From Tepidibacter aestuarii (lineage in GTDB: Bacteria > Bacillota > Clostridia > Peptostreptococcales > Peptostreptococcaceae), in the NCBI RefSeq assembly GCF_934924865.1, contig NZ_OW235315.1, positions 1,550,001 to 1,614,000 of the forward strand: a stretch of DNA of 64,000 bases. The letters run 5' to 3'. The stretch's first letter is position 1. Every line of letters begins with the position of its first letter. The position numbers and the translations under genes were made by a program. Below are positions 13,062 to 39,855 of this stretch, piece after piece. The notes below the pieces were generated by a model. It was not told the DNA's origin. It searched no databases and saw only the letters and a program-made list of their open reading frames with translations.

Positions 13062-13075
13062 ATGACAATAGTCAA
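13062..13075 (+). promoter_or_regulatory. TTGAC-N4-GTCAA-type operator upstream of ndh
   Basis: ATGACAATAGTCAA, a 12-bp perfect dyad core TGACAATAGTCA (allowing the central AATA/TATT asymmetry), then AAAATATTGT. The same sequence class lies before the men cluster and the rdh operons. A TATAAT at 13103-13108 is 34.5 bp from the dyad centre, 7 bp farther than at the four best sites, so the geometry here differs. Confidence 0.65.
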
Positions 13076-13156
13076 AAAATATTGTTTTATGTCGTAAGAA
13101 AATATAATATTTATGTGTGAGTCAAGAAAACGATTGTATTTATAAGGAGGCAGAAT

Positions 13157-14746
13157 ATGAGTAATAAAAAAAGAATAGTGCTTCTTGGCGCAGGGTATGG
13201 AGGTTTATTAACAGCAAAAAAACTTGCAAATAAATTAAAAAATGATAATCAAGTAGAGATTACACTTATTGACAAAAACCCATACCATACAATGCGTACA
13301 GAACTTCATGAGGTAGCAGCTGGTAGAGTTTCAGAGGAATCTATTAGAATTAATTTAAAGAAAATATTTGCTGGAAGAAAGGTAAATGTTGTACTGGACG
13401 AAATAAATGATATCGATTTCAAGGAGAAGGTTTTAAAATCAAAAAACACCAAATATGAATATGATTATTTAGTAATGGGTACTGGATCTAAGCAAACTTT
13501 CTTTGGAATACCAGGGGCACAAGAGAATACTTTTAAATTATGGGATTTTGATGATGCTGTTAAATTAAAAGAACAAATTCTTCATATGTTTAGAGAAGCA
13601 GTAAAAGAAACTAATAAAGAAAAAAGACAAAAAATGTTAACTTTTGTTGTAGTAGGCGGTGGATTTACAGGTATAGAAATGATTGGTGAATTAGGTGAAT
13701 GGAAAGACAGATTATGTGAGGACTTCTATATAGACAAGGAAGAAGTAAAATTATATGTAGTAGATGGTGCACCTAAGATATTACAAATTTTATCTGATAA
13801 CTTAATTAAAAAAGCTGAGAAAAGACTTAAAAAATTAGGAATTGAAATAGTAACAGGTGCAGGTATCACAGAGGTTTCGAAAGATTCCGTTACATTAGGA
13901 GATAAAGGTAAGATAGACACATATACTACAATTTGGGCAGCTGGTGTTGAGGGGTCGGATATTTTAGGTAAAGTGGATATTGAACAAAAGGGAAGAAAAA
14001 GAATAGTTACAAATGATAAACTACAAGCTGTAGATTACAATAATGTTTATGTTGTAGGTGATAATATATTCTATATTGTAGAGGGTCAAGAAAGACCTGT
14101 TCCTCAGATGGTTGAGAATGCTGAACATTCAGCTCCATTAGTTGCAAATAATATTTATAAAGATATAAAAGGTGGAGAAAAGAAATCCTATAAACCAACT
14201 TTCCATGGTTGCATGGTATGTATAGGTTCTCGCTATGGTGTAGCTACTGTTGGAATGCCTGGTAAAATGTTTGGAATGACTGGTTTTATGGCTATGTTTA
14301 TAAAACATTTTATCAACTTGGTATATTTCTTCCAGGTAGCTGGATTTAATAAATGTTGCTCTTATTTATTACATGAATTTTTCCATACGAAAGATAATAG
14401 GAGTTTTGTTGGTGGATGTTTTGCAAAGGCATCTTCAAATCTTTGGTTATTACCTCTTAGAATATTTATCGGTTACAAGTGGTTGGAGCAGGGACATGGA
14501 GTTATTGGATTACTACTGATTCTTGGATTGTTTACTGATATTGCATTAATTATATCTATTGCCGTTGCAGCAATGACTTGGACTTCTGGTATAGCAACTA
14601 TGGATATGCTTTGGTATATAATTTCAGGTATTGCTTTAATTGGATCAGGAAGTACATTTGGTCTAGATTATTATGTAATACCTGCCTTTAAGAAAGCGTG
14701 GAAGAAGATTGGTATTATTAAAAAATCATATCTATATATTGATTAA
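13157..14746 (+). CDS. ndh: Type II NADH dehydrogenase with DoxX-like membrane tail
   Basis: 529 aa. Residues 1-400 are a two-dinucleotide-fold flavoenzyme: GAGYGG at 11-16 (FAD), a second GGGFTGIE (NADH), then VVGDN near the FAD C-terminal motif. Transfers electrons from NADH to quinone without proton pumping. A further ~120 aa hold three or four hydrophobic segments (e.g. HGVIGLLLILGLF, IALIISIAVAAMTW, WYIISGIALIGSG) that resemble DoxX-like membrane domains and would anchor it. Single gene between terminators, GGAGG before ATG, with the shared palindromic operator about 90 bp upstream. I infer it feeds menaquinone for dehalorespiration. Confidence 0.88.
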   Translation: MSNKKRIVLLGAGYGGLLTAKKLANKLKNDNQVEITLIDKNPYHTMRTELHEVAAGRVSEESIRINLKKIFAGRKVNVVLDEINDIDFKEKVLKSKNTKYEYDYLVMGTGSKQTFFGIPGAQENTFKLWDFDDAVKLKEQILHMFREAVKETNKEKRQKMLTFVVVGGGFTGIEMIGELGEWKDRLCEDFYIDKEEVKLYVVDGAPKILQILSDNLIKKAEKRLKKLGIEIVTGAGITEVSKDSVTLGDKGKIDTYTTIWAAGVEGSDILGKVDIEQKGRKRIVTNDKLQAVDYNNVYVVGDNIFYIVEGQERPVPQMVENAEHSAPLVANNIYKDIKGGEKKSYKPTFHGCMVCIGSRYGVATVGMPGKMFGMTGFMAMFIKHFINLVYFFQVAGFNKCCSYLLHEFFHTKDNRSFVGGCFAKASSNLWLLPLRIFIGYKWLEQGHGVIGLLLILGLFTDIALIISIAVAAMTWTSGIATMDMLWYIISGIALIGSGSTFGLDYYVIPAFKKAWKKIGIIKKSYLYID

Positions 14747-14761
14747 TTCAATAATACTCTA

Positions 14762-14800
14762 ATTTCCAGTAAAAATATTATTTTTACTGGAAATATTTTT
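14762..14800 (+). terminator. Rho-independent terminator after ndh
   Basis: ATTTCCAGTAAAAAT-ATT-ATTTTTACTGGAAAT followed by TTTTT. Confidence 0.88.
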
Positions 14801-14863
14801 GTGCATATTAAAATTTAAAATAAGATGACTATTGATCCCAATTATTACAATTGTCGATTAAAT

Positions 14864-14903
14864 GTGACAATAGTCAAAAAGTGTTGATAAAAGACATTAG
14901 AAT
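14864..14903 (+). promoter_or_regulatory. Activator-type operator and -10 of the men cluster
   Basis: The dyad GTGACAATAGTCAA (14864-14877, centre 14870.5) is followed by AAAGTGTTG and a -10 TAGAAT (14898-14903), 27.5 bp from centre to -10. The -35 position reads CAAAAA, far from TTGACA. This places the dyad near -41.5, as for class II CRP/FNR sites. A degenerate half site, TGACTATTGA, lies at 14826. The leader from here to the first gene is about 170 nt. Confidence 0.65.
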
Positions 14904-15080
14904 AGTTAAACTTTTAATAAACAAACTGTTGTAGCACTTGAAGAGACTTAGACTCATACTGGGTTAGAGCGGTAGTTTTATTGATTTTGTAGATTAGTCG
15001 AAATGATTATACGGTAATGTAGTCTTAATATGAATTTAATAAATATTATAAAAAGTATTATGAAAGTGTGGGGAATTAGA

Positions 15081-15872
15081 TTGAAACTTAAGGAGATTTA
15101 TGAGCCAATCGACCAAAGAATTAACAAAATGGAAGATGAACTAAATAATTTATTTAGTGATGCTGGTATTCCTTGTATTAATGAATTATTCGGATATTTT
15201 TTTAAAAATTCAGGGAAGCATCTTCGTCCTGCATTAACATTTTTATCAGCAGGCGCTGTAAAAAAGCAAGATGATATAAATGATAACAATCTTGTACAAT
15301 TAGCCTTAGCCTTTGAACTTTTACACAGTGCAAGCTTAGTTCATGATGATATTATTGATGAGGATTTAACTAGACGTGGTCAGAAAACACTAAATAATGT
15401 ATTCGGTAATAAAATAGCAGTATTAGCGGGAGATACCTTATATTCTAGTGCATATTCGATAATGTCAAACCTGTTTCCTAGAGAATATTCGCAAGATATA
15501 GCTAATCTTGGATTTAAAATGTGTGTTGCTGAAATTGAACAGGCAAAAGGAAGCTTAAATCGTGAAAATTATTTCAAAGTTATTGAAGGAAAAACTGCGT
15601 TATTTATGAGTATTTGTTGTAAATTAGGAGCATCTTTAGCAGGAGCCACAGAAAGTCAATTGAAAAGCTTAGAGAATTTTGGATTGAATTTAGGAATGGC
15701 ATATCAAATAAAAGATGATTATATGGACGATGACCCTAATGGACTAAAGCATGCAACTATAGATGATGCTTGGAATTTTGCATCAAAAGCAAAAGAATCG
15801 GTTAGTGGATTAGATGATTCTGTATATAAGCAGAATTTATGTGGATTAGTGGACTATATTATGAATGTTTAA
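15081..15872 (+). CDS. Polyprenyl diphosphate synthase (menaquinone side chain)
   Basis: 263 aa from TTG 15081. All-trans prenyl synthase that extends FPP/GGPP with IPP. The first Asp-rich motif is DDIIDED and the second is DDYMDDD in QIKDDYMDDD; GKHLRP and GDTLY are also typical. As first gene of the men operon it should supply the side chain for MenA, analogous to HepT/IspB. TTG 15081 is chosen because GTGGGGA lies 6 nt upstream and the family begins MKLKEIYEPI-like; upstream in-frame ATGs at 15030 and 15060 lack a ribosome binding site. No separate HepS-type subunit is seen. Confidence 0.87.
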   Translation: MKLKEIYEPIDQRINKMEDELNNLFSDAGIPCINELFGYFFKNSGKHLRPALTFLSAGAVKKQDDINDNNLVQLALAFELLHSASLVHDDIIDEDLTRRGQKTLNNVFGNKIAVLAGDTLYSSAYSIMSNLFPREYSQDIANLGFKMCVAEIEQAKGSLNRENYFKVIEGKTALFMSICCKLGASLAGATESQLKSLENFGLNLGMAYQIKDDYMDDDPNGLKHATIDDAWNFASKAKESVSGLDDSVYKQNLCGLVDYIMNV

Positions 15873-15873
15873 T

Positions 15874-15911
15874 AAATGGCCTAATATTTTTATATTAGGG
15901 CATTTATTTTC
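15874..15911 (+). terminator. Hairpin between prenyl synthase and menF (possible attenuator)
   Basis: AAATGGCCTAATAT and ATATTAGGGCATTT pair with one internal G-G mismatch, followed by ATTTTCTT. It may reduce transcription into menF relative to the prenyl synthase gene. Confidence 0.5.
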
Positions 15912-15931
15912 TTAGATTGGAGGTTGATAAT

Positions 15932-17077
15932 TTGAAATATAAGGAAAAACAAATTGAATTAGATAATCGGCTTTCATTCTGGAATCATTTTAAAAATGAA
16001 GAACGTTTTTTATTTTATAACCCCATAAGGAAAGAGTTTATATTGGGTGCTAAACGCTTAAAAACTATTTCTATGGAAGAAGATTTAAAAGATTATTTGT
16101 ATACTTTTTCATCAATGACATTCTTTGACTCAATTAAAGATGAAAAGTGGAAAGACTTTGGAAATGAAACTGTTGCATTTGAATACTATCTTGTTGAAAA
16201 AGACGGAAAACAGACTCTTTATTATTTTGAAGATTTAGTTGAAATAGAAAATATGGAAGTCAAAATTTTTAAGCATTCTTACAAATACTCAGAAAATGAT
16301 TATAAGGACTGGAATGAATTATTCTATAGTATAAATAATGAAATATCAAAACAAGAAGTAAACAAGGTTGTTATTTCAAGAGAAATTAAAATTCAGTGTG
16401 ACACTTTAGTAAATGTAGAAAGTATACTAAAAAATCTCTTGGATAAGAATAAAAATGATTTTGTTTTTGCCTATTTTAAAGATGGAAAAACATTTTTAGG
16501 TGCAACACCAGAAATTCTGGTTCAAAAAGAAAAGAATAATATTTTAAGTTATGCTTTAGCAGGTACTATTGAACGAAGTGAAAAAGATGATGAGCTTCAA
16601 AAAATAATGCTTCTAAATGATTCTAAAAATCGTTATGAACATCAAATTGTTATTGATTCAATATCCAATGTTGTGAAAAAATTCACTAAGGAGATTACTA
16701 TAGATGAGACAACAATTTTAACACTTAGAAATTTACATCATTTGTACACACCTATTTATGCAAAGGACAAAAACAGTTCACTGTTGCAGTGGGCAAGACG
16801 ACTACATCCTACACCTGCAATGGGAGGGAATCCTGTAAACACAGCATTAGAATTAATTAGAAGGTATGAAAAACATGAAAGAGGATTGTATGCAGCTCCA
16901 ATAGGCATAATGAATGGAAATGGAGATGGAGTTTTTGTAGCAGGAATACGATCTGCACTTATTAAAGAAAACACGGTTTTTGCATATGCAGGCTGTGGTA
17001 TAGTAGATAAATCGAATTGTGAGATTGAATACATTGAAACTAAAAATAAATTAAGAACCATAATTGAAAGTTTATAG
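15932..17077 (+). CDS. menF: Menaquinone-specific isochorismate synthase
   Basis: 381 aa. Converts chorismate to isochorismate, the entry step of classical menaquinone synthesis. The C-terminal chorismate-binding domain shows ISREIKI, the ALAGTI..R segment, [18 protein letters not shown] and [14 protein letters not shown] with a final AGCGIV, as expected for MenF/EntC. The start is TTG 15932, with TTGGAGG 8 nt upstream; the TTG at 15917 lies inside that site. Its stop is 14 nt before menD. Confidence 0.92.
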
Positions 17078-17093
17078 TAAAGTGGTGAAATCA

Positions 17094-18737
17094 ATGACAA
17101 ATTATTTTGCAGCGTTAGTTGATGAGTTGTACCAATTAGGTGTGCGTGAAGTTGTAATTAGTCCAGGCTCACGATCTACACCATTGTCTTTATTATTTTG
17201 TGAACATGATTTTAAAACTTTTATTAATATAGATGAACGATCAGCTGCTTTCTTTGCACTTGGTATCGCAAAAGAATACGAAAGACCTGTTGTATTAGTT
17301 TGTACTTCAGGTTCTGCAGTTGCAAACTACTTCCCTGCAATTGTTGAAGCAAAATATTCAAGAATACCATTAATTATTTTAACAGCTGATCGACCACATG
17401 AATTGCGTCATGTTGGAGCACCTCAGGCAATTGATCAAAATAAAATATTTAACGATTATACAAAATATTATGAAGAATTATCATTACCTGAAGAAAATAT
17501 GTGTTCCTATGTAAGAGCTGTTATGCAAAAAGCATATTCAATTTCTATGACAAAAGGATATGGGGTATCTCATATTAACGTACCGATTCGTGAACCTTTA
17601 ATTCCAGATTGGGATAACTTGGATTTTACTATAGGACGTTATAAAAATAAATTTGAGTATATAAAAGGCGAAGTTGAATTTTCCATTGACGATTTGATTT
17701 TTAAAAATAAGAATGGACTTATAATTTGTGGTGGGGATGCTTATTCAAATTATCATGAAGAAGTATTGAAGTTAGGAGAAAGGTTAAAAGCACCTATACT
17801 AGCTGATCCAATTTCAAATTTAAGAAATTATTCAAAAGATATAATTATTGATAGTTATGATGCATTTTTAAAAGATGATGAGATAAAAAAAGAATTAAAG
17901 CCTGAATATATCATTCATTTTGGGCAAGTTCCTATTTCAAAACGTTTACACCAATTCTTGTCTATGCATAAAAATGCTTTATACATTCAAGTTGATGAGA
18001 CATTCGAATATCGTAATCCATCTTTATCTACTCAAAAATATGTTCTTTCATCACCAAGAGTGTTTGCCAATTCTATTCGTATACAAAACAGTAATACAGA
18101 GTATTTAGGTAAATGGATAAAATATCAGAAAAAAATGCGAAAACAATTGAATAGTGTAAATAATGAAACAAACTTATTTGAAGGAAAGTTGATTCAGAAG
18201 ATACAAAATATGATGCGAGTGGAAAGTAGGTTAGTTATTTCAAATAGTATGGCGATTCGAGATGTAGATTACTTTTTTGAATCAAAAAATCAAAAAATAA
18301 AAATATTGTGTAATAGAGGGGCAAATGGAATAGATGGTACTATCTCAACTGCACTAGGTGTATCTACATCAGATAAACCAACTGTTTTGTTAACAGGGGA
18401 TCTATCCTTTTACCATGATCTAAATGGATTATTAATTGGAAAAACACACAATTTGAATTTGACTATTATATTACTTAATAATGATGGTGGAGGAATATTT
18501 AGGTATTTACCACAGAGTAAAGAAAAGCATTTTGACTATTTATTCTTAACACAACATGGTATGAATTTTGAAGGTACAAAACATTTGTATGATGTAACAT
18601 ATTATGAAGCAGAGGACTATAATTCATTTGAAAGTGTTTTCAATCAAGCAATATCGTTAGAAGGAATTAAATTGATTGAAGTAAAAATTGATTCACAGTT
18701 AAGTAAGGGATTACATGATAAATATACAACATTATAG
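17094..18737 (+). CDS. menD: SEPHCHC synthase
   Basis: 547-aa thiamine-diphosphate enzyme joining isochorismate and 2-oxoglutarate to give SEPHCHC. The N-terminus has the MenD signature [12 protein letters not shown] and a ThDP glutamate region ([13 protein letters not shown]). The C-terminal ThDP motif is [12 protein letters not shown]...NNDGGG. ATG 17094 is taken as the start: it gives the canonical [16 protein letters not shown]-terminus. The in-frame ATG at 17064 would overlap menF and lacks a ribosome binding site. The ribosome binding site GTGGTGA is modest, suggesting coupling to menF. Confidence 0.94.
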
Positions 18738-18743
18738 GGTGGT

Positions 18744-19538
18744 ATGATGTTTATTGAAATTGAAAATATTAGATATCACATTCAGATAAAAGGTGAAGGT
18801 AAACCACTTATTTGTTTACATGGTTTTTCTGAAAATGTAAATACATGGAAATTAATTAAATTAGACGGTTATCAGTTAATATTTATAGATTTTATCGGAC
18901 ATGGAAAAAGTGATAAACCACTTTCTCGTAAGTACTATAGCTTGAAAGTAATGATAAAACATTTAAATAATTTAATCCATAAATTAGGCTTTAATAAATA
19001 TTCAATGCTAGGTTACTCTATGGGAGGTAGAATTGCACTTGCCTATGCACTAACTTATTCAAATGAAATAGATAAACTTATTTTAGAAAGTGCATCTTAT
19101 GGTGAATGTGGGTTTATAAATCGATTAAAACGACGCAAAAATGAATTAAATCTAGCCAAAGATATAAGAAAAAATGGAGTTGAGTGGTTCAATGAATATT
19201 GGGAGAATTTAAGTATTTTTGATTCACAAAGAAAATTACCAGAAGATATTATTGATGGTATAAGAAAAAGGCGTTTATTAAATGAAGGTTACGCACTTTC
19301 AAATACATTAATATGTACAGGACAAGGTAAATTCCCATGTTTGAAAAATAAAATAGTTAATTTATCCATGCCTGTATTATATATTAGCGGAGAATATGAT
19401 AAAAAATACAAAAAAGTGGGTAATGATTTTGAAAAATTAAATTTAAATATAAATCACAAAACAATAAATGGTGTAGGGCACAATACTCATATTGAAGATC
19501 CTAATGCATTTGTTAAGGCTTTAAGTGAATTTTTATAA
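18744..19538 (+). CDS. menH: SHCHC synthase, alpha/beta hydrolase
   Basis: 264 aa. Eliminates pyruvate from SEPHCHC to give SHCHC. Alpha/beta-hydrolase hallmarks: LHGFSEN (oxyanion region), nucleophile elbow GYSMGG (Ser in LGYSMGGRIALAYAL), Asp in the SGEYD segment and the terminal His in GVGHNTHIED. GGGTGG lies 4-7 nt before tandem ATGs (18744, 18747). It is 6 nt from menD, inside the operon. Confidence 0.9.
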   Translation: MMFIEIENIRYHIQIKGEGKPLICLHGFSENVNTWKLIKLDGYQLIFIDFIGHGKSDKPLSRKYYSLKVMIKHLNNLIHKLGFNKYSMLGYSMGGRIALAYALTYSNEIDKLILESASYGECGFINRLKRRKNELNLAKDIRKNGVEWFNEYWENLSIFDSQRKLPEDIIDGIRKRRLLNEGYALSNTLICTGQGKFPCLKNKIVNLSMPVLYISGEYDKKYKKVGNDFEKLNLNINHKTINGVGHNTHIEDPNAFVKALSEFL

Positions 19539-19566
19539 ATAAAATAATTTTAAAAGGAGTGTTAAT

Positions 19567-20409
19567 ATGAATAAGTTTCCTTGGAAAGAGTTAGATCGTA
19601 ACTACGAAGACATTATTTATGAAACATATGATGGAATTGCTAAAATTACAATTAATCGTCCACACGTACGTAATGCATTTCGTCCTAAGACAATCATGGA
19701 ATTGATTGAGGCTTTTACAATAGCTCGTGAAGATAATAATGTAGGAGTTATTGTGTTAACAGGCGCAAATCATGGACAAGGTGAAGATAAAGAAGCATTT
19801 TGTTCTGGAGGAGATCAAAAGGTAAGAGGTAACGGAGGATATATAGGAGACGACAATATTCCACGTTTAAATGTTTTAGATCTTCAGCGTTTAATTCGTG
19901 TTATTCCAAAGCCGGTTATTGCCATGGTTAATGGGTATGCAATTGGTGGAGGACATGTACTTCATATAGTATGCGACTTAACAATTGCATCTGAAAATGC
20001 CAAATTTGGACAAACAGGACCAAAAGTAGGTTCTTTTGATGCTGGATATGGTGCTGGATATTTAGCACGTATGGTTGGTCATAAAAAAGCACGTGAAATT
20101 TGGTATTTATGCCGTCAATATACTGCAAAGGAAGCACTTGATATGGGGTTAGTAAACACTGTTGTTCCATTTGATAAGTTAGAAGAAGAAACAGTACAGT
20201 GGGCAAAAGAAATACTTGAGCATTCACCTACTGCATTACGTTTCTTAAAAGCATCATTTAATGCAGATACAGATGGGTTAGCTGGTTTACAGCAATTAGC
20301 AGGAGATGCTACATTATTATTTTATACAACAGATGAAGCAAAAGAAGGAAGAGACGCATTTAAAGAAAAAAGAAAGCCTGATTTTGATAAGTTTCCTAAA
20401 TATCCATAA
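19567..20409 (+). CDS. menB: 1,4-dihydroxy-2-naphthoyl-CoA synthase
   Basis: 280 aa, crotonase fold. Cyclises o-succinylbenzoyl-CoA to DHNA-CoA. MenB-specific features: N-terminal [35 protein letters not shown] (oxyanion hole), [15 protein letters not shown] and the C-terminal [16 protein letters not shown] tail. AAGGAG lies before ATG. It is fifth in the operon, 28 nt after menH. Confidence 0.96.
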
Positions 20410-20421
20410 AAAGGTGAGAAG

Positions 20422-21765
20422 ATGAATTGGCTTAAAAAACATAGTTTTGAAAAAAAAAATAAAAAGTTTATTAATAACCTAACATTTGGAGAAGTTTATG
20501 AGAGGGTAGGCGATTTATCTAAAAAGCTATATCCATATGTAAAAAATGAGAAAAGAGTTGCAATTTATTCAGATAATTCAGTTGATATGGCAATTTTCTT
20601 TTTAGCACTTCAATATTTAGAAAAAGAAGTATTGATGGTAAACACAAGACTTACAGATGAGGAAATAACAAAGCAATTAAAAACACTAAATATTGAAGTA
20701 GTATTTTCTTATAACAACAAATTTATATCATTTAATCAAGTATATAAAAGTGAAAAGGAAGATATAAAATTAGTTGAGGAATTCAATGAAGAAAAAATTG
20801 CTGTTATTATGAATACAAGTGCAACAACAGGTGAGTTTAAATCAGTTCCTATTAGGTGGAAACAGTTTTATTCTCATGTAAAAGCATCACAAAAAAGTAT
20901 TGGATTAACAGATGAAGACAATTGGCTTGTTGTACTACCTATGTATCATATTGGCGGATTAGCTATACTAATAAGAAGCTTATACAATGGAACACAAATT
21001 ACTATATTAGAAAAATTTGATGAAGAACAAGTTATAAAGTTAATTGAAATCAGTAGAATTAATATGATATCAGTTGTGCCAACTATGCTCAATAGAATTG
21101 TTGATGAAGTTAAAAAACATAATTTACGCGTGGTCTTGGTAGGCGGAGAGTTTATTCCAAAACCTTTAGTTGGAAAAAGTATAATAAAAAACATTCCTAT
21201 ATATAAAACCTATGGAATGACAGAGACAACAAGCCAATCTACTACTTTTTCAGTATTAAAGTATGCAGATAAAATTGATTCAGTAGGATTACCACTTGGG
21301 GGAGTAGATGTTCGGATTAAAAATCCTGATGAAAAAGGAATAGGTGAAGTTCAAATTAAAAGTCCAATGTTAATGGATGGGTATATTGGAAAAGAAAATA
21401 TTTCTGATTATTTTAATACAGAAGATGTTGGTTATATAGATGAAGATGGATTTTTGTATATACTTGATCGAAGAAAAAATATAATTATATCTGGTGGAGA
21501 AAATATTTATCCAAAAGAAATTGAAAACATATTATATTCACATCCAAAAATAAATGAATGTGCAGTTGTTGGAAAGAAAGATGAACGATGGGGACAAGTT
21601 CCTGTTCTATACATTGTATCTTCATTAGATAAAGATACAATATTAAGCTATCTTTCAGATAAAATAGCAAAATACAAACTTCCAAAAGAAATTAATCATT
21701 TGGATGAGCTTCCTAAAAATGCATCAGGTAAAATATTAAAAAAGAATTTAAAAGAGGTTGATTAA
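20422..21765 (+). CDS. menE: o-Succinylbenzoate-CoA ligase
   Basis: 447-aa ANL-family adenylating enzyme activating OSB with ATP and CoA. It has the P-loop-like MNTSATTGEFKSVP (shorter than the usual S/T-S/T-G-T-T-G), KTYGMTETTSQ (A5), DVGYIDEDGFLYILDRRKN (A7/A8 hinge) and the catalytic lysine in PKNASGKILKKNL (A10). GGTGAG lies before ATG. The stop TAA abuts the menC ATG with no gap. Confidence 0.93.
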   Translation: MNWLKKHSFEKKNKKFINNLTFGEVYERVGDLSKKLYPYVKNEKRVAIYSDNSVDMAIFFLALQYLEKEVLMVNTRLTDEEITKQLKTLNIEVVFSYNNKFISFNQVYKSEKEDIKLVEEFNEEKIAVIMNTSATTGEFKSVPIRWKQFYSHVKASQKSIGLTDEDNWLVVLPMYHIGGLAILIRSLYNGTQITILEKFDEEQVIKLIEISRINMISVVPTMLNRIVDEVKKHNLRVVLVGGEFIPKPLVGKSIIKNIPIYKTYGMTETTSQSTTFSVLKYADKIDSVGLPLGGVDVRIKNPDEKGIGEVQIKSPMLMDGYIGKENISDYFNTEDVGYIDEDGFLYILDRRKNIIISGGENIYPKEIENILYSHPKINECAVVGKKDERWGQVPVLYIVSSLDKDTILSYLSDKIAKYKLPKEINHLDELPKNASGKILKKNLKEVD

Positions 21766-23254: not shown

Positions 23255-23304
23255 TTGTTTACAAAATATGGAATATACTTGCTTAATTGAATAGAGGTGA
23301 GAAA

Positions 23305-24204: not shown

Positions 24205-24210
24205 AAACAA

Positions 24211-24912: not shown

Positions 24913-24927
24913 TAGGAGGGGAAAAAC

Positions 24928-25110: not shown

Positions 25111-25136
25111 TAAGTGATAAGAAGTAGGTGAATAAG

Positions 25137-25871: not shown

Positions 25872-25890
25872 ATATTTAGCTAGTTTTTAA
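25857..25890. terminator. Perfect 34-bp palindromic bidirectional terminator
   Basis: TTAAAAACTAGCTAAAT followed by its exact reverse complement. It ends the men-tat operon and the convergent regulator gene, and encodes the C-terminus KLKTS of both proteins. Confidence 0.9.
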
Positions 25891-28697: not shown

Positions 28698-28740
28698 AAA
28701 AAATATATATAAATAACTAGAATTTAGGGGAGGACTATAT

Positions 28741-30285: not shown

Positions 30286-30300
30286 TAAGGGGGATATAGT

Positions 30301-30639: not shown

Positions 30640-30648
30640 TGCCCTTTT
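30627..30648 (+). terminator. Palindrome at the rdhB-1 / rdhT-1 junction
   Basis: AAAAGGGCATTAATGCCCTTTT, a perfect 22-bp dyad over the rdhB stop, followed by ATCTATTTTTATTT. It is a probable attenuator lowering rdhT expression relative to rdhA/rdhB, or a processing stem. Confidence 0.55.
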
Positions 30649-30692
30649 ATCTATTTTTATTTAGTAGATAAAACATTAGAAAAGGTGATAAC

Positions 30693-31590: not shown

Positions 31591-31642
31591 AATATAAAAA
31601 ACCCTTTGTTATAAATTTATATAACAAAGGGTTTTTTATATT
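31591..31642. terminator. Strong bidirectional terminator after rdhT-1
   Basis: A 23-bp perfect stem (AATATAAAAAACCCTTTGTTATA) around AATTTA, with T-runs on both sides. Related palindromes end the other modules. Confidence 0.92.
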
Positions 31643-32400
31643 ATTCATTCAAATTTCGTGCTAATGAAATTTGCTTTAGCTGCTTTAACCTACTTTTAAT
31701 AAAGATATTGAAATATAATTCGCTTTTTAAAAAATATAATTCTCGTAAAGCAGAATGTGTATTATATTCTTTACAGTACTCAATAGCATAATCAATATGT
31801 TCAAGGCATTCATTTAAATGGGATGTATCAAGGGAAGCTATAATTAACTGAACATAAAATCTAGGAACTGTATATCGTGTATGAATAAAGTTAATATTCT
31901 CTATATATTTTTTTATATTGATTAAGTAATTATAGGCCTCTTCTTTTTGAATATTTAATAATAGAAAAAAGCCATACATATGCATAATTGCAAATTCTAT
32001 ATCAGTAGGAGTACTTTTTTTGGTATAAGTAAGTTTCAGTATATTTCTAACTTCATTCATTCCCCATTGATAATTTTGACTTAAAATAGTATATCTAATA
32101 CATTTTAAACCATTGATAAGTTGTATATCATGAATTGATGTTATATGAAGTTCTTTTTCTTTTTTCTTTAGTAATTTATAAATACTTTTAAAATCATATC
32201 TTTCAATATAAAGAATTAATTCGTTTAAGAAATCTTTAACATCTAAGCCCTCAGGAGACTCAATCGCTCTAAATAAATACCCCTAGTCTAGTTGTTATTT
32301 GTCTTAATATAACTGAAGTAGGGCAACGCTCTCCTTTTTCTATACGAGTTATGTATGAAATAGAGCAAACACCATTTGTAAGTTGTGTTTTTGTCATATT
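31641..32400 (-). pseudogene. Broken XRE/TPR regulator 2
   Basis: Homologous along its length to the regulators at 33104 and 38777, with three lesions. The first ~22 codons are replaced at about 32398-32401 by rdhA sequence. About 11 nt are missing in the HTH-TPR linker at 32281 (CTAGGGGTATTTATTTAG against CTAGG...TTTATTTAG in the intact gene), giving a stop. About 30 codons are missing in frame near the 3' end, where ELYF joins directly to NIFIKSRL. The longest surviving ORF is 31641-32060. The DNA-binding region is partly present but not joined to a start. Confidence 0.88.
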
Positions 32401-32636
32401 TCTCATTCTGGAATTACAATGGGATTGGGTGTGTTACATGTGTCTCTGTTTGTCCATACAATAAGATTGAGGAGTGGCACCATGATTTATCAAAATTAAT
32501 GACAATGACACCATTTAAACCATTACTACGTTCACTAGATGAGTTATTTGGATATGGGGGTCCAGTAGAACTAGATGTACGCATAGAATCAAAATATTTA
32601 AAAGATGCTGTTAATGATTTCTGGAATAGACTATAA
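32401..32636 (+). pseudogene. rdhA: rdhA copy 2, C-terminal scar
   Basis: Encodes only the last ~78 residues of a reductive dehalogenase: FWNYNG, then the C-x2-C-x3-CP part of the second Fe-S motif (GCVTCVSVCPYNK), WHHDLSKLM and the conserved C-terminus KYLKDAVNDFWNRL. It joins directly to the 5' end of regulator 2 in the opposite orientation. One deletion therefore removed the intergenic promoters, the tatA and about 440 rdhA codons. There is no signal peptide, no first Fe-S motif and no ribosome binding site. Confidence 0.92.
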
Positions 32637-32651
32637 TAAGGGGGATAAATT

Positions 32652-33103: not shown

Positions 33104-33997
33104 TTATTTTAGTTGATTCAATCTATTTTGTATAAAGGTATTGAAATATTCATCATCAGATCTTTTAATCAATTCATGCAGTCTTAATGCTTTACCATAC
33201 CATAGTTTAAACTTCTTTTCTTTTTTTAAGCGATAGTATAATTCACTTTTTAAAAAATATAATTCTCGTAAAGTATAATGTGTATTGTAATCTTTACAGT
33301 AATTAATAGCATAATCAAGATATTCAAAACAGTCTTTTAAATTACATGTATCAAGAGAAGCTGAAATTAAATATACATAAAATCTTGGTAATATAAAGCG
33401 AGTATGAAGAAGGTTAATATTATGTATATATTTTTTTATGCTAATTAAGTAATTATATGCTTCTTTTTTTTGGTTACTAAATAAAAGTAAAACCCCATGC
33501 ATACTCATAAGCGCAAATTCCATATCAGTAGGAGTACTTTTGTTGGCGTAGGTAAGCTTCAATATGTTTTTAACTTCATTTATTCCCCATTGATAATTTT
33601 GATTTAAAATAGAATAACTAAAACATTCTAACCCTTTGATGATTTGTAAATCGTGAATTGATGTTACATGAAGTTCTTCTTTTTTGCTCTTTATTAATTC
33701 ATAAATATTTTTAAAATCATGCCTTTCAATATAAAGAAATATTTGGTCTAATAGTTCCTTAACATGTAAAGATGTAGACGACTCAATTGCTCTAAATAAA
33801 TGTTCAGGGGAGATACCTAGTTTATTTGTTATTTGTCTTAATATAACCGAAGTAGGACAACGTTCTCCTTTTTCTATACGAGTGATGTATGAAATGGAGC
33901 AAATACCATCCGCAAGTTGTGTTTTTGTCATATTCTGTTTTTCACGTAATTCTTTAATAATCTGACCTATTTTTAAATAATAATTCTGTTCTTGCAT
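33104..33997 (-). CDS. XRE-family HTH/TPR regulator 3
   Basis: 297 aa with an HTH_3 at residues 10-68 (IKELREKQNMTKTQLADGI, SYITRIEKGERCPTS) and helical TPR-like repeats to the C-terminus (SELYYRLKKEKKFKLWYGKALRLHELI). Divergent from tatA-rdhA-rdhB module 3 across a 462-bp region that holds the dyad operators. GGAGG before ATG. Paralogue of regulators 1 and 5; specificity probably differs in the TPR part. No partner peptide gene is seen. Confidence 0.85.
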   Translation of the reverse strand: MQEQNYYLKIGQIIKELREKQNMTKTQLADGICSISYITRIEKGERCPTSVILRQITNKLGISPEHLFRAIESSTSLHVKELLDQIFLYIERHDFKNIYELIKSKKEELHVTSIHDLQIIKGLECFSYSILNQNYQWGINEVKNILKLTYANKSTPTDMEFALMSMHGVLLLFSNQKKEAYNYLISIKKYIHNINLLHTRFILPRFYVYLISASLDTCNLKDCFEYLDYAINYCKDYNTHYTLRELYFLKSELYYRLKKEKKFKLWYGKALRLHELIKRSDDEYFNTFIQNRLNQLK

Positions 33998-34117: not shown

Positions 34118-34188
34118 TTGACATTAGTCAAGAAATCTTGTGTGAGATTTGACATTAGGCAAGCAATCTTGTATCTAAACAGTATAAC
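34118..34188 (+). promoter_or_regulatory. Two dyad operators and -10 for module 3
   Basis: TTGACATTAGTCAA (34118-34131) and TTGACATTAGGCAA (34149-34162) lie 31 bp apart in a tandem direct repeat (GAGATTT...AATCTTGT). The -10 TATAAC (34183-34188) is 27.5 bp from the centre of the nearer dyad, and the -35 position reads CAAGCA. The rest of the 462-bp gap between regulator 3 and tatA holds no ORF I can support. Confidence 0.7.
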
Positions 34189-34459
34189 ATATAAAATCAT
34201 GTTACAAAATAATACAAAAAATATATTATGAGAAAAATCACAGAAGTCTAAAATTAGTTAAAAGTTAAAGTTGTATTCAAATGAATTTGTTTTGCTGACG
34301 CTGAACAAGAAAATTCGTATGTAGAAATTATAATATATAAAATTATATTATAAAAAATAATAAAATCAATAAATGTTAGAAAAAAAGTTGATTTTTTCAT
34401 AAGAAATAATAATGGGATATGAGCCTTTCTAGTTATATTCTATTATAGGAGGTGATATT

Positions 34460-34633
34460 ATGTTCGGAAGATTAGGTAGCACAGAATTAATTGTTATTTT
34501 AGTTGTTGGATTTTTAATATTTGGACCGAAAAGATTACCTGAGATTGGAAAATCATTTGGAGAAACAATACGAGAATTTAAAAAATCAGCAAAACAGGCT
34601 GAGGATGAAGTGACAGAGGCTACTAAAGAATAA
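34460..34633 (+). CDS. tatA: TatA paralogue within rdh module 3
   Basis: 57 aa: MFGRLGSTE, TM helix (LIVILVVGFLIF), hinge FGPKRLPEIGKSFGETIREF and an acidic tail EDEVTEATKE. Very similar to the copies at 28512 and 39978. AGGAGGTGATATT before ATG. The predicted transcript starts about 265 nt upstream. First gene of the tatA-rdhA-rdhB operon. Confidence 0.92.
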   Translation: MFGRLGSTELIVILVVGFLIFGPKRLPEIGKSFGETIREFKKSAKQAEDEVTEATKE

Positions 34634-34667
34634 AGTAGATAAAACAATTAATATAGGAGGCATACAA

Positions 34668-36224
34668 ATGAATAGACGTGAATTTTTAAAAGTTGCTGGA
34701 GCTACAACTGCAGTAACAGGAGTTACACTTGCAACAAAACCAAAGAAAGCTTTTGCAGTGGAACTTGGAAAAGAACAAGATCAATTTCCAAATAAGGTAA
34801 CGAAAGATTTTAAAGGTTTCAATCAGAAAAATCTTATGTTTATGCGTGGATTTTGGGATAATACTCCTTATGATGATGAATATATTAAAAAAACGTTCGG
34901 TCGTAATTCACCTATGGATTCATTATTAAATTATGTTGCAGTACAATATGGATTAAAAAATGCACAAAATGATAGCGAAGATAAGGAAGGTTTTAGACAT
35001 ATAGACAAAGTATTATCACTTGCAGCTGGTAGTGTTGATAAGCATTTTGGAGGAATGAGTAAATATACTATTGCAAATTCACCTCTTCCAACACATCCAA
35101 TTAATCCATTGACTGGTGAAATAATGAAAGACCAGAATGTTTTAGTTCCAGGTTTGTTTTCTTGGGATAACTCAAAAGTAGATAATATGTTATCAATGGG
35201 TAAACCACACCATAAATTTAAAGATACAAAGGGAGCATCACAATACGTTAAAAGAGCTGCAAAATTATTTGGAGCTGATTTAGTTGGAATTGCACCATAT
35301 AATGAAAATACAAAAAGATGGACTTATACTGAGTGGACATCTTTAAATACAAAACCATTTACAATGCCAGATGGCTCAAGAGAGTTTATGCCATTCGATC
35401 TTGATAAGTTAGTAAATGAAAATAAATATGAAGGATTTGGTGTTAAAACAAGAAAATCTGATTTTAAGAGAGAAGCAGGATTTGAACCGAAATCAATTAT
35501 TGTATTAGCATTTAATCAGGATTATGACGGGTTTAAAACAGCACCGTCATATATTGTGAATGCAGCATCTGGAGTTAAATATTCTGCTATGGCAGAAGTA
35601 TCTCATAAATTAGCTGAATTTTTAAGGGGGATAGGTTATAAAGCTATTCCATGTGGAAATGATACAGCTTTATCAGTTCCACTTGCAATAGAAGCTGGTT
35701 TAGGTGAAGGTAGTAGAATGGGAATATTAGTTACAGAAAAATTCGGACCACGTGTTCGTTTGTGTAAAATCTATACAGACTTAGAATTACATCCAGATAA
35801 ACCAAAAACATTTGGAGTTAAAGAATTTTGTAATGTTTGTATGAAATGTGCAGATGCTTGTCCAGGTAAAGCTATTTCACACGAACCATCAAAAGTTCTT
35901 AAAGAAGGAATGGAGTTTGAAACAGGTAAAGTAGGTATATCAAATATTAGTGAAGTTGAAAAATGGTATATGAATGGAGAAAGATGTTTGTCATTTTGGA
36001 GCTACAATGGGTCTGGTTGTGGTACGTGTATTTCAGTTTGTCCATACAATAAAATTGATGAGTGGCATCATGATTTATCAAAATTAATGACGTTAACGCC
36101 ATTTAAACCATTATTACGTTCGCTAGACGAAATGTTTGGATACGGAGGTCCTATAGAGCCGGATGAACGTTTAGAATCAAAATATTTAAAAGATGCTGTT
36201 AATGATTTCTGGAATAGACTATAA
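34668..36224 (+). CDS. rdhA: Reductive dehalogenase catalytic subunit, copy 3
   Basis: 518 aa. Tat signal RREFLK, AFA cleavage site. Fe-S motifs at C388/C391/C394/C398 and C440/C451/C454/C458, each closed by Pro. It is the divergent member: residues about 50-150 (FWDNTPYDDEYIKK..., a different central loop) differ from copies 1 and 5, whereas the cobalamin-proximal and Fe-S halves are alike. A different organohalide substrate is likely, but I cannot name it. GGAGG before ATG. Confidence 0.96.
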   Translation: MNRREFLKVAGATTAVTGVTLATKPKKAFAVELGKEQDQFPNKVTKDFKGFNQKNLMFMRGFWDNTPYDDEYIKKTFGRNSPMDSLLNYVAVQYGLKNAQNDSEDKEGFRHIDKVLSLAAGSVDKHFGGMSKYTIANSPLPTHPINPLTGEIMKDQNVLVPGLFSWDNSKVDNMLSMGKPHHKFKDTKGASQYVKRAAKLFGADLVGIAPYNENTKRWTYTEWTSLNTKPFTMPDGSREFMPFDLDKLVNENKYEGFGVKTRKSDFKREAGFEPKSIIVLAFNQDYDGFKTAPSYIVNAASGVKYSAMAEVSHKLAEFLRGIGYKAIPCGNDTALSVPLAIEAGLGEGSRMGILVTEKFGPRVRLCKIYTDLELHPDKPKTFGVKEFCNVCMKCADACPGKAISHEPSKVLKEGMEFETGKVGISNISEVEKWYMNGERCLSFWSYNGSGCGTCISVCPYNKIDEWHHDLSKLMTLTPFKPLLRSLDEMFGYGGPIEPDERLESKYLKDAVNDFWNRL

Positions 36225-36239
36225 TAAGGGGGATAAATT

Positions 36240-36575
36240 ATGCATATAATAATTAGCTTAGCAAAATGGTTATTAACACTACATCAATTAGTATGGTTTG
36301 TAGTTGGAGGACTGATATGTTCTTCAATAGCATATTTTTATATGAAATTAAAGCAGGATAATAAAATTAACAAATTGAATTTTACATCTATATTATTATC
36401 AGCATGCACTTTTTCATTTACGATATTATGGACATATGATTCATATGTAGAAAATGAAGTTAGAGCAGCTAATATGGGACTATTAGTATTTGGAGGATTA
36501 GCAGTAGTTTTTGCAATACTTGGATATAGATTCACACAGAAAAATGATGTAAGTAAAGTGGAGATAAAACATTAG
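36240..36575 (+). CDS. rdhB: RdhB membrane anchor, copy 3
   Basis: 111 aa, three TM helices, with the YDSYVENEVRAAN segment between helices 2 and 3 identical to the other copies. Substitutions cluster in helices 1 and 2 (VVGGLICSSIAYFYMK; SILLSACTFSFTILW). GGGGGA before ATG, 15 nt after rdhA. Ends tatA-rdhA-rdhB module 3. Confidence 0.92.
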   Translation: MHIIISLAKWLLTLHQLVWFVVGGLICSSIAYFYMKLKQDNKINKLNFTSILLSACTFSFTILWTYDSYVENEVRAANMGLLVFGGLAVVFAILGYRFTQKNDVSKVEIKH

Positions 36576-36745: not shown

Positions 36746-36785
36746 TTGACACTAGTCAACAAATATTGTATGTAGACAGGATAAT
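36746..36785 (+). promoter_or_regulatory. Dyad operator and -10 for rdhC-2
   Basis: TTGACACTAGTCAA (36746-36759, centre 36752.5), then CAAATATTGTAT and the -10 GATAAT (36780-36785) at 27.5 bp. The -35 position reads CAACAA. Remainder of the 444-bp gap to rdhC-2: no supported ORF. Confidence 0.7.
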
Positions 36786-37019
36786 ATATAAAATAATATT
36801 GCAAAATGCTATTAAAAATATAAATAGGGTAAAATGACGCCAAAGAGGTTGATTATTTAACAAAAAATAAAAGGAAGGATAATATAACAAACATGAGTTT
36901 TTTGGGTGATTTACCATTTATAATTAAAAATAATAATATCATAAATTTTTAATTAAATAATTATATGAGATTTTATGTTTTTAAACACATATATGTCATA
37001 GTATTCATTGGAGGTAATT

Positions 37020-38243
37020 ATGAGAAAAAGATGGACTATTAGGGAGTTGTACTTAGGATTTTTAGCTATTTCATTATTTATATTTGGTGGTTATACCTTA
37101 TTTTTTAGCCATGAAGCTGAGGACTATTCATCTAAAATATATAAAATAAATCCCAATATTATTAAAACAGAACAAATAAATCAATCACCATTGACTTTTA
37201 AAACATACACAAAAGATGATCCTAATCAATTTTATTTTATAACTTTTACAGAATCGGTCGGATATCAGTCGACTATAGAAGTTATGAGCATAATTAGTAA
37301 AGAAGGAAATATAAAACAAGTAGAGGTTACAAAGGAAGGAGAAACGCCCGCTTTTTTTGATAAAATTGAATCAAGTAAATTTAATGAAAAATTTGTAGGG
37401 TTATCAATTTTTGAACCTATTTATATTGATAATGCTACAGGTTATGCGGGAAGTAGTGATGGAATAGATACAAACAATAAAGTTGATGCTGTTAGTGGTT
37501 CGACGATTTCATCTGCTGCTATAGCCAAAGCTGTTAATGATGGGACAACTATTGTGGCAAGTAAATATTTCGATGAGAATGTTGTTAATCCATTTTATAA
37601 AATGGCATTTGGATTAAATGAATTAGCTCTTTTATTAGTTTATATAATTGCTGCTTTAAGTGTTTATATCAAGTCAATTAATAGATATCGTAAATGGATT
37701 TTATTGTATACAGCTATAGTAATTGGTTTTAAATTTAATAAGTTTGTAACGTTTGGTATGTTACACTCATTCTTAAATGGAAATTGCCCAGCAATAAACA
37801 ATGTCTCATGGTATTTATTGATAATAGGTACAACTGGGCTTATCTTAGTTACAGGTAAAAATTTATATTGCTTGTGGATTTGTCCATTTGGAGCGACACA
37901 AGAAGTTATATTAAAATTTGGTGGACTAAAGCAGATTAAGTTAAATCCTAAGCTTGTAAAATTATTTAGATTAATACCACCGACATTAGCTTATTTAGCC
38001 TTGATGATTGTATTTTACACTAATGAAACTCAAACACTAGCATATGATCCATTTGGAGCCATATTTAATTTGACGGCATTACCAATTATGTGGATGAGCT
38101 TACCAATACTTATTTTTATAAGTTTATTCCAATATCGTTTTTATTGTACTTATTTCTGTCCTGTAGGATTAATACTTAATTTAATAGCAAAATTAAGAAA
38201 CAAAGGAGTTAAGTTATGGAAAAAAGAGAAAGTAGAAGCATAG
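37020..38243 (+). CDS. rdhC: RdhC/PceC-type membrane flavoprotein, copy 2
   Basis: 407 aa, about 85% identical by eye to copy 1. The N-terminal TM, FMN domain with SGST flavinylation motif, multi-TM part and both CxxxCP motifs (CLWICP, CTYFCP) are all retained. GGAGG 6 nt before ATG 37020. It is not followed by tatA-rdhA but by the microprotein and a broken rdhT, so this is an rdhC-only transcription unit with its own operator. It could serve RdhA-3 and RdhA-5, whose operons have no rdhC. Confidence 0.92.
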   Translation: MRKRWTIRELYLGFLAISLFIFGGYTLFFSHEAEDYSSKIYKINPNIIKTEQINQSPLTFKTYTKDDPNQFYFITFTESVGYQSTIEVMSIISKEGNIKQVEVTKEGETPAFFDKIESSKFNEKFVGLSIFEPIYIDNATGYAGSSDGIDTNNKVDAVSGSTISSAAIAKAVNDGTTIVASKYFDENVVNPFYKMAFGLNELALLLVYIIAALSVYIKSINRYRKWILLYTAIVIGFKFNKFVTFGMLHSFLNGNCPAINNVSWYLLIIGTTGLILVTGKNLYCLWICPFGATQEVILKFGGLKQIKLNPKLVKLFRLIPPTLAYLALMIVFYTNETQTLAYDPFGAIFNLTALPIMWMSLPILIFISLFQYRFYCTYFCPVGLILNLIAKLRNKGVKLWKKEKVEA

Positions 38244-38338: not shown

Positions 38339-38407
38339 AGAGAGCAATAGAGATTTATACAGAAAAGCAAGGAAATAAATAGATAAAACATTAGAGAAGG
38401 TGATGAC

Positions 38408-38720
38408 ATGAAAGTTCAGCTTGGTCAATATAAAGGATTTGGTTTGAAAAGACCAGATATAAATGTAAAGGATGAAGAAATTAATGAGTATATTGATAAT
38501 ATAAGATAGCAATATAAAATAGAAGTCAAAAAAGAAGGTTCTATTGAAAAAGGTGACTATATTGCCATGGATTATGATGGATACCATGAGGGGTCACATA
38601 TCCCTGCGGTAAGTAAAAAGAATTATCATTTTCGAATTGGACAAAGATTTAGATGTTTTCAATCAGTTATTGTATCAAAAGGTTGTTCATTTTCTTTTAA
38701 AAGAAAATACAACTATATAA
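38408..38720 (+). pseudogene. rdhT: Broken rdhT
   Basis: It begins like the intact rdhT (KVQLGQYKGFGLKRPDINVK) with GAGAAGGTGATG before ATG, but codon 34 is TAG (GAA in the intact gene). After about 80 codons, at IGQRF, a deletion of roughly 570 nt joins out of frame to the last ~20 codons (NQLLYQKVVHFLLKEN), ending TAA 38718-38720. No functional product is expected. The unit therefore depends on the rdhT at 30693. Confidence 0.92.
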
Positions 38721-38727
38721 GTAAATA

Positions 38728-38777
38728 ATAATAAAAATTCCCTGATATCAATCCATATATCAGGGAATTTTTATTAT
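38728..38777. terminator. Bidirectional terminator after broken rdhT
   Basis: AATAAAAATTCCCTGATAT...ATATCAGGGAATTTTTATT, between the pseudogene and convergent regulator 5. Confidence 0.9.
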
Positions 38778-39700
38778 TATTTACTTAAATCTGATGTCAG
38801 TGGAATTTGTTTTAGTTTTTCTAATCTACTTTTAATAAATGTATCCAAATATTCATCGTCAGAATTTTTAATTAAATCATGAAGTGTTAATGCTTTACTA
38901 TACCATACTTTAAAGTCTTTTTCTTTTTTTAAACGATAGTATAATTCACTTTTTAAAAAATATAATTCTCGTAAAAAATTATAGGTGTTGTTTTTTTTAC
39001 AGTAATCAATAGCATAGTTAATATATTTAGATGATTCATCTAATTTAGACATATCAAGACAAGCTGAAATTAAAAACATATAAAACGCAGGGAATATAAC
39101 TCGCGTATGAAGAAATTTGATATTATCCATATATTTTTTTATACTTATTAAGTGATTATATGCTTCTTTTTTTTGGTTATTTAATAAAAGAAAGAAGCCA
39201 TAATTAAACATTATTATAAACTCTATATCAGTAGGATTACTCTCTTTATTATAAGTGAGTTCTAGTATATTTTTCATTGCATCTATTCCACGCTGATAAT
39301 CTTGACTTAGCATGGTGACACTAAGACTTTTAAAAGTTCTAATAATCTGCGTATCATGAATTGATGTTATAGACAATTCTTTTTCTTTTTCATTTATTAA
39401 ATTATAAACACTTTTAAAGTCATGCCTTTCAATATAAAGAAATATTTGGTCTAATAGTTCCTTAACATGTAAAGATGCAGGAGACTCAATTGCCCTAAAT
39501 AAATATTCTGGAGTAATACCTAATTTAGTTGCTATTTGCCGTAATATAACTGAAGTAGGACAACGGCTTCCGTTTTCTATTAAAGTAATGTATGAAGGGG
39601 AACAAATACCATCTGCAAGTTGTTTTTTTGTCATATTATTTTTTTCACGAAGTTCTTTAATATAAGGGCCTATCTCTATATAGTAATCTGTCAATTTCAT
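38777..39700 (-). CDS. XRE-family HTH/TPR regulator 5
   Basis: 307 aa: HTH_3 at residues 10-68 (IKELREKNNMTKKQLADGI, SYITLIENGSRCPTS), then TPR-like helices. The recognition-helix region reads SPSYITLIENGS, where copies 1 and 3 have SVSYITRIENGE and SISYITRIEKGE. This is a change at likely DNA-contacting positions. C-terminal extension LKQIPLTSDLSK. AAGGAGG before ATG. Divergent from tatA-rdhA-rdhB module 5. Confidence 0.85.
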   Translation of the reverse strand: MKLTDYYIEIGPYIKELREKNNMTKKQLADGICSPSYITLIENGSRCPTSVILRQIATKLGITPEYLFRAIESPASLHVKELLDQIFLYIERHDFKSVYNLINEKEKELSITSIHDTQIIRTFKSLSVTMLSQDYQRGIDAMKNILELTYNKESNPTDIEFIIMFNYGFFLLLNNQKKEAYNHLISIKKYMDNIKFLHTRVIFPAFYMFLISACLDMSKLDESSKYINYAIDYCKKNNTYNFLRELYFLKSELYYRLKKEKDFKVWYSKALTLHDLIKNSDDEYLDTFIKSRLEKLKQIPLTSDLSK

Positions 39701-39779
39701 CTCATATCCTCCTTACAATATAGCGTTTTTTGAACGGTTTTCGTCATATTTTTACATTATAATGTATAATCAAGGAAGT

Positions 39780-39855
39780 TTACAATAGTAAAATGATTGA
39801 CAATAGTAAAGCTAGGTAACAATAGTCAACAATTATTGTATAAAAAGGTCATAAT
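39780..39855 (+). promoter_or_regulatory. Three dyad operators and -10 for module 5
   Basis: TTACAATAGTAA (39780-39791), TGACAATAGTAA (39798-39809) and TAACAATAGTCA (39817-39828), spaced 18 and 19 bp. The last extended dyad (39816-39829) is followed by CAATTATTGTAT and the -10 CATAAT (39850-39855), again 27.5 bp from the dyad centre, with CAACAA at the -35 position. Confidence 0.7.

Follow-up and report, generated by a model that had tools for sequence, protein, structure and literature searches.

A dyad shared by ndh, menaquinone and reductive dehalogenase promoters of Tepidibacter aestuarii, a probable operator of PlcR-like regulators

We analysed a 64,000-bp stretch of the Tepidibacter aestuarii genome (bases 1550001-1614000 of contig 1; genome 3.67 Mb; G+C 28.3%), hereafter the window, which carries ndh, a menaquinone synthesis (men) operon ending in tatC, and several reductive dehalogenase (rdh) modules. 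A short palindromic dyad stands before these genes, and the original prediction had assigned it to an activator of the CRP/FNR type. It had missed three PlcR-like paralogues (a, b and c) with a helix-turn-helix (HTH) and a TPR domain, encoded divergently beside dyads, and these are the likelier readers of the dyad. The cluster was compared mainly with those of Oceanirhabdus and of G144, a genome of the same order, so that three genera are represented.

Genes and dyads of the cluster

The genes, by position in the window and strand, are as follows.

13157..14746, + strand: ndh, a Pyr_redox_2 flavoprotein; dyad-bearing copies in Oceanirhabdus and G144 are 75-76% identical
15030..25871, + strand: men-tatC operon (polyprenyl synthetase, isochorismate synthase, menD, menH, menB, menE, menC, MenI-like thioesterase, menA-like, menG, tatC)
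25876..26775, - strand: PlcR-like HTH-TPR regulator a, divergent from rdhC-1
27181..28404, + strand: rdhC-1 (FMN_bind, Fer4_5)
28512..31589, + strand: tatA, rdhA-1, rdhB-1 (rdhB by position) and a trigger-factor-like protein
31641..32403, - strand: decayed fourth PlcR-like regulator copy, two matches containing stops
33104..33997, - strand: PlcR-like HTH-TPR regulator b, divergent from module 3
34460..36575, + strand: module 3, tatA, rdhA, rdhB (rdhB by position)
37020..38243, + strand: rdhC-2, with a start resembling that of rdhC-1; both rdhC match the Oceanirhabdus rdhC
38777..39700, - strand: PlcR-like HTH-TPR regulator c, divergent from module 5
39978..42101, + strand: module 5, tatA, rdhA, rdhB (rdhB by position)

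By its gene content the cluster fits the respiratory reductive dehalogenase type (rdhA with a predicted Tat signal, rdhB, rdhC). The three rdhA products scored 247.8, 238 and 245.7 bits against TIGR02486 (cut-off 160.35), and the single rdhA run against Pfam gave Dehalogenase and TAT_signal matches, both sub-cut-off. The rdhC genes were recognised via FMN_bind and Fer4_5, and rdhB via position only. NDH-2 is the label that the original prediction gave to the ndh product, for which no NCBIfam model scored above cut-off; the MenI-like and MenA-like matches in the men-tatC operon fall under their own NCBIfam cut-offs. Rfam at gathering scores gave no match between 12000 and 43000.

The dyads preceding these genes are located as follows.

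13062..13075, + strand: dyad before ndh, ATGACAATAGTCAA
14864..14877, + strand: dyad before the men-tatC operon, GTGACAATAGTCAA, 14 bp identical in all three genera
26872..26960, + strand: array of four dyads before rdhC-1 (26872, 26907, 26927, 26947), the last three 20 bp apart
34118..34162, + strand: two dyads (34118, 34149) before module 3 tatA-rdhA-rdhB
36746..36759, + strand: dyad before rdhC-2, TTGACACTAGTCAA
39779..39829, + strand: three dyads (39779, 39797, 39816) before module 5 tatA-rdhA-rdhB

All the sites that had been claimed before ndh, men, rdhC-1, module 3, rdhC-2 and module 5 are present in the sequence, with coordinates within 1 bp, and an array comparable to that of rdhC-1 exists in G144 (L157 517-587). 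Over 31 sites the consensus is N-TGAC-A-H-T-A-GTCA-N. The bases of TGAC (positions 2-5) are found in 29, 29, 31 and 31 sites and those of GTCA (positions 10-13) in 30, 30, 24 and 28, while positions 6, 8 and 9 of the centre are kept in 27, 30 and 29.

Specificity and conservation of the dyad

Enrichment of the loose pattern TTGAC-N4-GTCAA is slight. When up to two mismatches are allowed, the window contains 46 copies where 28.9 are expected, and 1 of 100 shuffles reaches 46; when up to one is allowed, the genome contains 83 copies and 73 of the reversed pattern. The specificity is in the full motif, including the conserved centre. Exact TGACAHTAGTCA has six sites in the T. aestuarii genome, every one in the cluster (reversed-pattern control, 2); six of its seven sites in G144 are on contigs bearing cluster genes (control, 1), and three of five in Oceanirhabdus are in the matching cluster (control, 2). 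Of the three stray sites in the latter two genomes, two belong to a repeated hairpin and one falls within a reading frame. The six exact sites of TGACAHTAGTMAA are likewise all in the cluster; allowing one mismatch raises the count to 49, of which 11 lie in the cluster and 38 outside it, and the reversed pattern then gives 64, so that off-cluster occurrence is at chance level. Of the off-cluster dyads inspected, two were copies of a repeated hairpin, one was a hairpin preceding a gene, and three lay within reading frames.

A matrix built from 19 sites of other genomes placed 11 of the 12 window dyads at ranks 1-11, all intergenic in a window whose intergenic share is 19%; ranks 12-20 were genic, and the twelfth dyad (26947) was outside ranks 1-11. 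At 13 bits or more the matrix found 10 matches in the window vs a mean of 1.3 and a maximum of 4 in 100 first-order Markov sequences, and at 11 bits it found 11 vs a mean of 3.7 and a maximum of 11. The matrix is not wholly independent of the window, because the other-genome sites were collected with the T. aestuarii consensus (up to three mismatches) or, for two of them, by eye (GGGACAATAGTCCC, GGGACAATTGTCCC). The palindrome can be taken as a real feature of the sequence.

When the three HTH proteins were compared with genome contigs, one close relative was found among 44 loci, in Oceanirhabdus sp. W0125-5 (60%). Close regulator homologues occurred in T. aestuarii and G144 only among 393 genomes of the order, and in T. 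aestuarii only among 391 genomes of the class. Both Oceanirhabdus and G144 hold ndh, a tatC-ending men operon of identical gene order, tatA, rdhA, rdhB, rdhC and the trigger-factor-like gene. The G144 genes are spread over four contigs; its ndh adjoins an rdhA-rdhB-trigger-factor set and carries its own dyad. The ndh dyad is ATGACAATAGTCAA in T. aestuarii and G144 and GTGACAATAGTCAA in Oceanirhabdus, the men dyad is GTGACAATAGTCAA in all three, and the rdh modules of Oceanirhabdus and G144 are also preceded by a dyad. The idea that one motif unites ndh, menaquinone synthesis with tatC, and the rdh modules is therefore borne out, being kept at matching genes in three genera, and a single regulon of the dyad-sharing genes is supported as far as sequence can tell.

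In G021, a genome of the same family but a fourth genus, a broken ndh (L154 7519-8766) retains the dyad and is probably a trace of a lost island; its best regulator match has an E of 8.9e-5 (no close homologue), and its one rdh-like match is under cut-off. The second Oceanirhabdus ndh (L101) has no dyad at up to three mismatches. No dyad at up to one mismatch was found at 13 ndh-like loci (L140-L153 except L148) of relatives without a close regulator homologue; two of them show a 2-mismatch site far from the start, and at 41-53% identity the 13 are perhaps not orthologues. At up to two mismatches the dyad was found in 0 of 28 rdh-like loci (L111-L138) from genomes besides T. aestuarii and G144, a weak control in that these loci reach just 1.5 kb past the match and the T. 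aestuarii rdhA-1 locus (L110) likewise shows no dyad.

The block 13157-43098 itself looks horizontally mobile: three same-genus genomes are without ndh (at E<=1e-100) and without rdh above cut-off.

Promoter geometry

The following promoters are predicted downstream of the dyads.

13082..13110, + strand: ndh, TTGTTT (13082) with TAATAT at 13105, or with TATAAT at 13103 and a 15-bp spacer
14884..14912, + strand: men, TTGATA (14884), N17, TAAACT (14907)
34169..34197, + strand: module 3, TTGTAT (34169), N17, TAAAAT (34192)
36766..36794, + strand: rdhC-2, TTGTAT (36766), N17, TAAAAT (36789)
39836..39864, + strand: module 5, TTGTAT (39836), N17, TAGAAT (39859)

The geometry was taken from 17 promoter-proximal dyads of the 31 sites (ndh, men and rdh families), with two array promoters outside the 17. 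TTG lies exactly 6 bp past the dyad in 15 of the 17, and TANNNT is at +29 in 14 and at +28 in the other three, which gives a -10 box in all 17 and a spacer of 17 (or 16) bp. The better conserved promoter would accordingly read TTGNNN-N16/17-TANNNT, with its predicted -35 box 6 bp after the dyad. With the start of the -10 hexamer at -12, the dyad centre is predicted near -48.5 rather than -41.5, and a spacing of 27.5 bp would put it at -39.5.

A shuffle test was run on 13 of the 17 promoters (leaving out Oc XRE2c, G144 C51b and C51c, and G021; Oc, Oceanirhabdus). Twelve of them share a single TTG offset, and all 13 carry TANNNT at one of two adjacent offsets, an agreement reached in 0 of 3000 within-sequence shuffles. 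The five T. aestuarii promoters all have TTG and all have TANNNT at one offset (each 0 of 3000), and for these promoters alone the looser condition of TANNNT at two adjacent offsets was reached in 2 of 3000 shuffles (five promoters) or 12 of 3000 (four); all these figures are inflated by kinship among the rdh promoters, with ndh, men and rdh being separate families. The two array promoters (rdhC-1 of T. aestuarii and G144 C48) deviate, their last dyad overlapping ATGACA-N18-TATAAT, and no common geometry was found on the regulator side.

The original prediction had placed the dyad centre 27.5 bp before TAGAAT, TATAAC, GATAAT and CATAAT. This is literally right at the four promoters it named but is not general, since a hexamer at +20 with five of the six TATAAT bases is found in 10 of the 17 promoters and in none of the four ndh promoters. 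Its further statement that the -35 position is never TTGACA-like is a consequence of taking the +20 hexamer as the -10 box.

PlcR-like regulators and competing explanations

The three regulators have an N-terminal HTH_3 followed by a TPR-like helical domain and are about 280-310 aa long, as RRNPP-type proteins are; their fold is predicted. Homology to PlcR runs along the protein, over 9-278 with a profile (E 6.6e-11) and 10-278 with a single sequence (E 6.1e-10). Foldseek matched PlcR (PDB 3u3w, 2qfc) at about 22% identity, and the next best matches, with weaker scores, were the other RRNPP receptors ComR, Rgg2 and PrgX, which have other operators and gene sets. Six plasmid records matched at 25-27% identity, and PHROGs gave general transcription-regulator families only.

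Across copies of the three genera the HTH is 65-92% identical (7 copies) and the TPR part 45-76% (8 copies); the third G144 copy lost its N-terminal part at a contig end and so is outside the HTH comparison. Two HTH types are distinguished by residues 24-25, TK (b and c of T. aestuarii, Oc2, G144-51) and SR (a of T. aestuarii, Oc1, G144-48). At the 22 of 31 sites adjoining a regulator, operator position 1 is T in 10 of 11 beside TK vs 1 of 11 beside SR (Fisher 3.5e-4), and position 14 is A in 11 of 11 vs 2 of 11 (Fisher 2.2e-4). The whole-protein tree pairs a of T. aestuarii with G144-51 and Oc2 with G144-48 (both 100/99), crossing the HTH types, and the operators track the HTH, which should be the behaviour of a DNA reader.

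We thus think it quite likely that the dyad is the operator of the PlcR-like HTH-TPR proteins, in place of the CRP/FNR reading. What speaks for this in the sequences is that the genes share a putative operator which is nearly confined to them and is conserved across three genera, together with the geometry of the promoters, the predicted regulator fold, and the co-occurrence of regulator and dyad. A regulator dimer bound at the dyad, 6 bp upstream of a weak -35 box of the TTG type, would help the housekeeping RNA polymerase to start ndh, the men-tatC operon and the rdh modules jointly. Tandem dyads about 20 bp apart could let dimers sit side by side. In the rdhC-1 array, where the last dyad covers the -35 box, binding may hold transcription down. 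The paralogues have a similar DNA-binding domain and may answer different signals at a shared promoter set, because their TPR domains diverge more than their DNA-binding domains. More tentatively, organohalide respiration with its quinone and export genes could be a single regulon under a bank of PlcR-type TPR sensors on one operator, a sensor for each of three rdh modules, with the TPR part, where PlcR and its kin bind peptide pheromones, sensing organohalides or another small respiratory signal, or else peptides, as in cell-cell signalling.

Several points weigh against an operator of PlcR-like proteins. The two array promoters break the common geometry, and the agreement between HTH type and operator may stem from linkage, because each regulator gene has the operator directly next to the end that encodes its HTH; the array sites are also non-independent. 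In T. aestuarii neither ndh nor men has a regulator gene next to it; the men operon does end beside regulator a, but at a distance of 11 kb from its dyad. A survey of 26 stretches of three genomes revealed no conserved peptide gene next to the regulators. The dyad spacing suits CRP/FNR proteins too, and two such proteins of T. aestuarii have a recognition helix that we take to be of the FNR E-xx-SR type. Finally, the reader of the dyad is assigned from sequence, and its binding, the activation and the signal are inferred.

An activator of the CRP/FNR type (CprK/RdhK-like) that binds the dyad in class II fashion, 27.5 bp separating the dyad centre from the -10 box, is improbable on balance. The original prediction was right that the arm spacing is like that of the dehalobox with different arms, 5-bp arms and a 4-bp spacer being its architecture (TTAATacacATTAA; PMC7062800, in the accessible text). 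The genome has seven full HTH_Crp_2 genes, all outside the window, and the +20 hexamer of 10 promoters would suit such an activator. None of these proteins was tied to the cluster by the genome searches, which covered T. aestuarii, G001, G003, G144 and G393 (the G003 and G144 comparisons being partial, 30 loci). None of the 13 HTH_Crp_2 (PF13545) matches of the genome lies inside the window. All seven full genes have orthologues in the same-genus G001 (82-97% identical); in G003 six of them have one as well (85.6-94.3%), the seventh being outside the G003 loci compared. Both genomes are without rdh above the family cut-off; this comparison took the seven full genes, with two partial above-cut-off matches (377 and 268 aa frames) outside it. 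When two of the proteins were compared with the PDB, CprK was among many CRP/FNR chains and not the top one. The class II geometry looks unlikely, since the better conserved boxes predict a dyad centre at about -48, ahead of a -35 box of the TTG type. Class II promoters are expected to have 29.5 bp between the centre and the -10 hexamer, so the 27.5 bp is itself off that geometry. The ndh promoters lack the +20 hexamer, and the conserved dyad centre (positions 6, 8 and 9) also argues against this activator. The window has no exact match to the dehalobox TTAAT-N4-ATTAA, and when up to one mismatch is allowed it has 32, fewer than the 43.3 expected.

It is less improbable, yet still unlikely, that the PlcR-like protein is mainly a repressor which leaves the dyad on a signal, its own promoter included. 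The overlap of the last dyad with ATGACA-N18-TATAAT at rdhC-1 and its G144 counterpart would fit, as would the -35-like hexamers that overlap the dyad on the regulator side of several copies; their significance is weak, the score being reached by 20 to 1504 of 2000 shuffles, depending on the copy. At most of the 17 other promoters a poor -35 box begins 6 bp past the dyad, an arrangement commoner with activators, and PlcR itself activates from boxes ahead of the sigma A -35 (PMC2464732). Functionless inherited sequence, carried by module duplication and island movement, is very hard to credit as the origin of the dyads. The rdh module promoters are indeed alike beyond the boxes, and the island looks mobile, as noted above, but unrelated promoters (ndh, men, rdh) share the dyad, the men dyad is identical over 14 bases in three genera, and the distance from dyad to promoter box is fixed.

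The putative regulators resemble PlcR in the HTH_3 and TPR fold, in length, and in a match along the protein. The PlcR box, too, is a palindrome; it requires an A/T centre, tolerates changes in its end bases and lies ahead of a sigma A -35 box (PMC2464732). They differ in the identity of about 22%, in an operator (ATGhAwwwwTdCAT for PlcR) unlike the dyad, in a gene set for respiration rather than virulence, and in that no PapR-like gene turned up next to the regulators. The ligands of RRNPPA receptors are short peptides, and a small open reading frame (ORF) lies beside 478 of 975 RopB homologues (PMC10518010, in the text available). The 26 stretches hold 18 small ORFs with a ribosome-site match, which the survey requires; inspected by eye, none of them recurs apart from tatA and frames within it. 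A 19-codon ORF at 36893-36952, MSFLGDLPFIIKNNNIINF, has a weak ribosome site and a GDLPF that recalls the PapR7 peptide ADLPFEF (PMC6568020, available part); it does not recur in the other genomes and was taken as chance.

The system is like CprK/RdhK in what it targets, in having regulators encoded next to rdh modules, and in its 5-bp arms with a 4-bp spacer. It differs in the protein family, unrelated to the CRP/FNR superfamily, in the arms, in the predicted promoter position, and in a gene set that adds ndh, menaquinone synthesis and tatC. Reductive dehalogenase regulators of the MarR type are found in Dehalococcoides. Others are of the CRP/FNR type, CprK/RdhK, which recognise TTAAT-N4-ATTAA at -41.5 (PMC7062800, PMC2610375, accessible parts), and in Sulfurospirillum the regulation is by a two-component system (PMC7755780, accessible part). 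A literature search, with most subscription journals outside it, found nothing linking reductive dehalogenase to PlcR, RRNPP or Oceanirhabdus. A PlcR-type regulator, if true, would be a further, unrelated solution to reductive dehalogenase control, and a single operator would span NADH oxidation, menaquinone synthesis, Tat export and dehalogenases. If the TPR part senses organohalides, RdhK's plan of a sensor per dehalogenase would have been invented a second time; if it still binds peptides, dehalorespiration would be under cell-cell signalling.

Three minor observations concern the rdh region and the leaders. The stretch 31641-32987 resembles a decayed rdh module, with the broken PlcR-like regulator, a short frame like the end of rdhA, and an open rdhB-like frame (putative labels). 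Downstream of rdhC-2, a 21-codon frame at 38444-38509 is like the start of the trigger-factor-like protein and is perhaps a lost copy. The leaders between 13076 and 39977 are long, the dyad and the start codon being some 81 to 297 bp apart (with corrected tatA starts), and a TTNTTTAACAAA-like stretch was spotted by eye in several of them.

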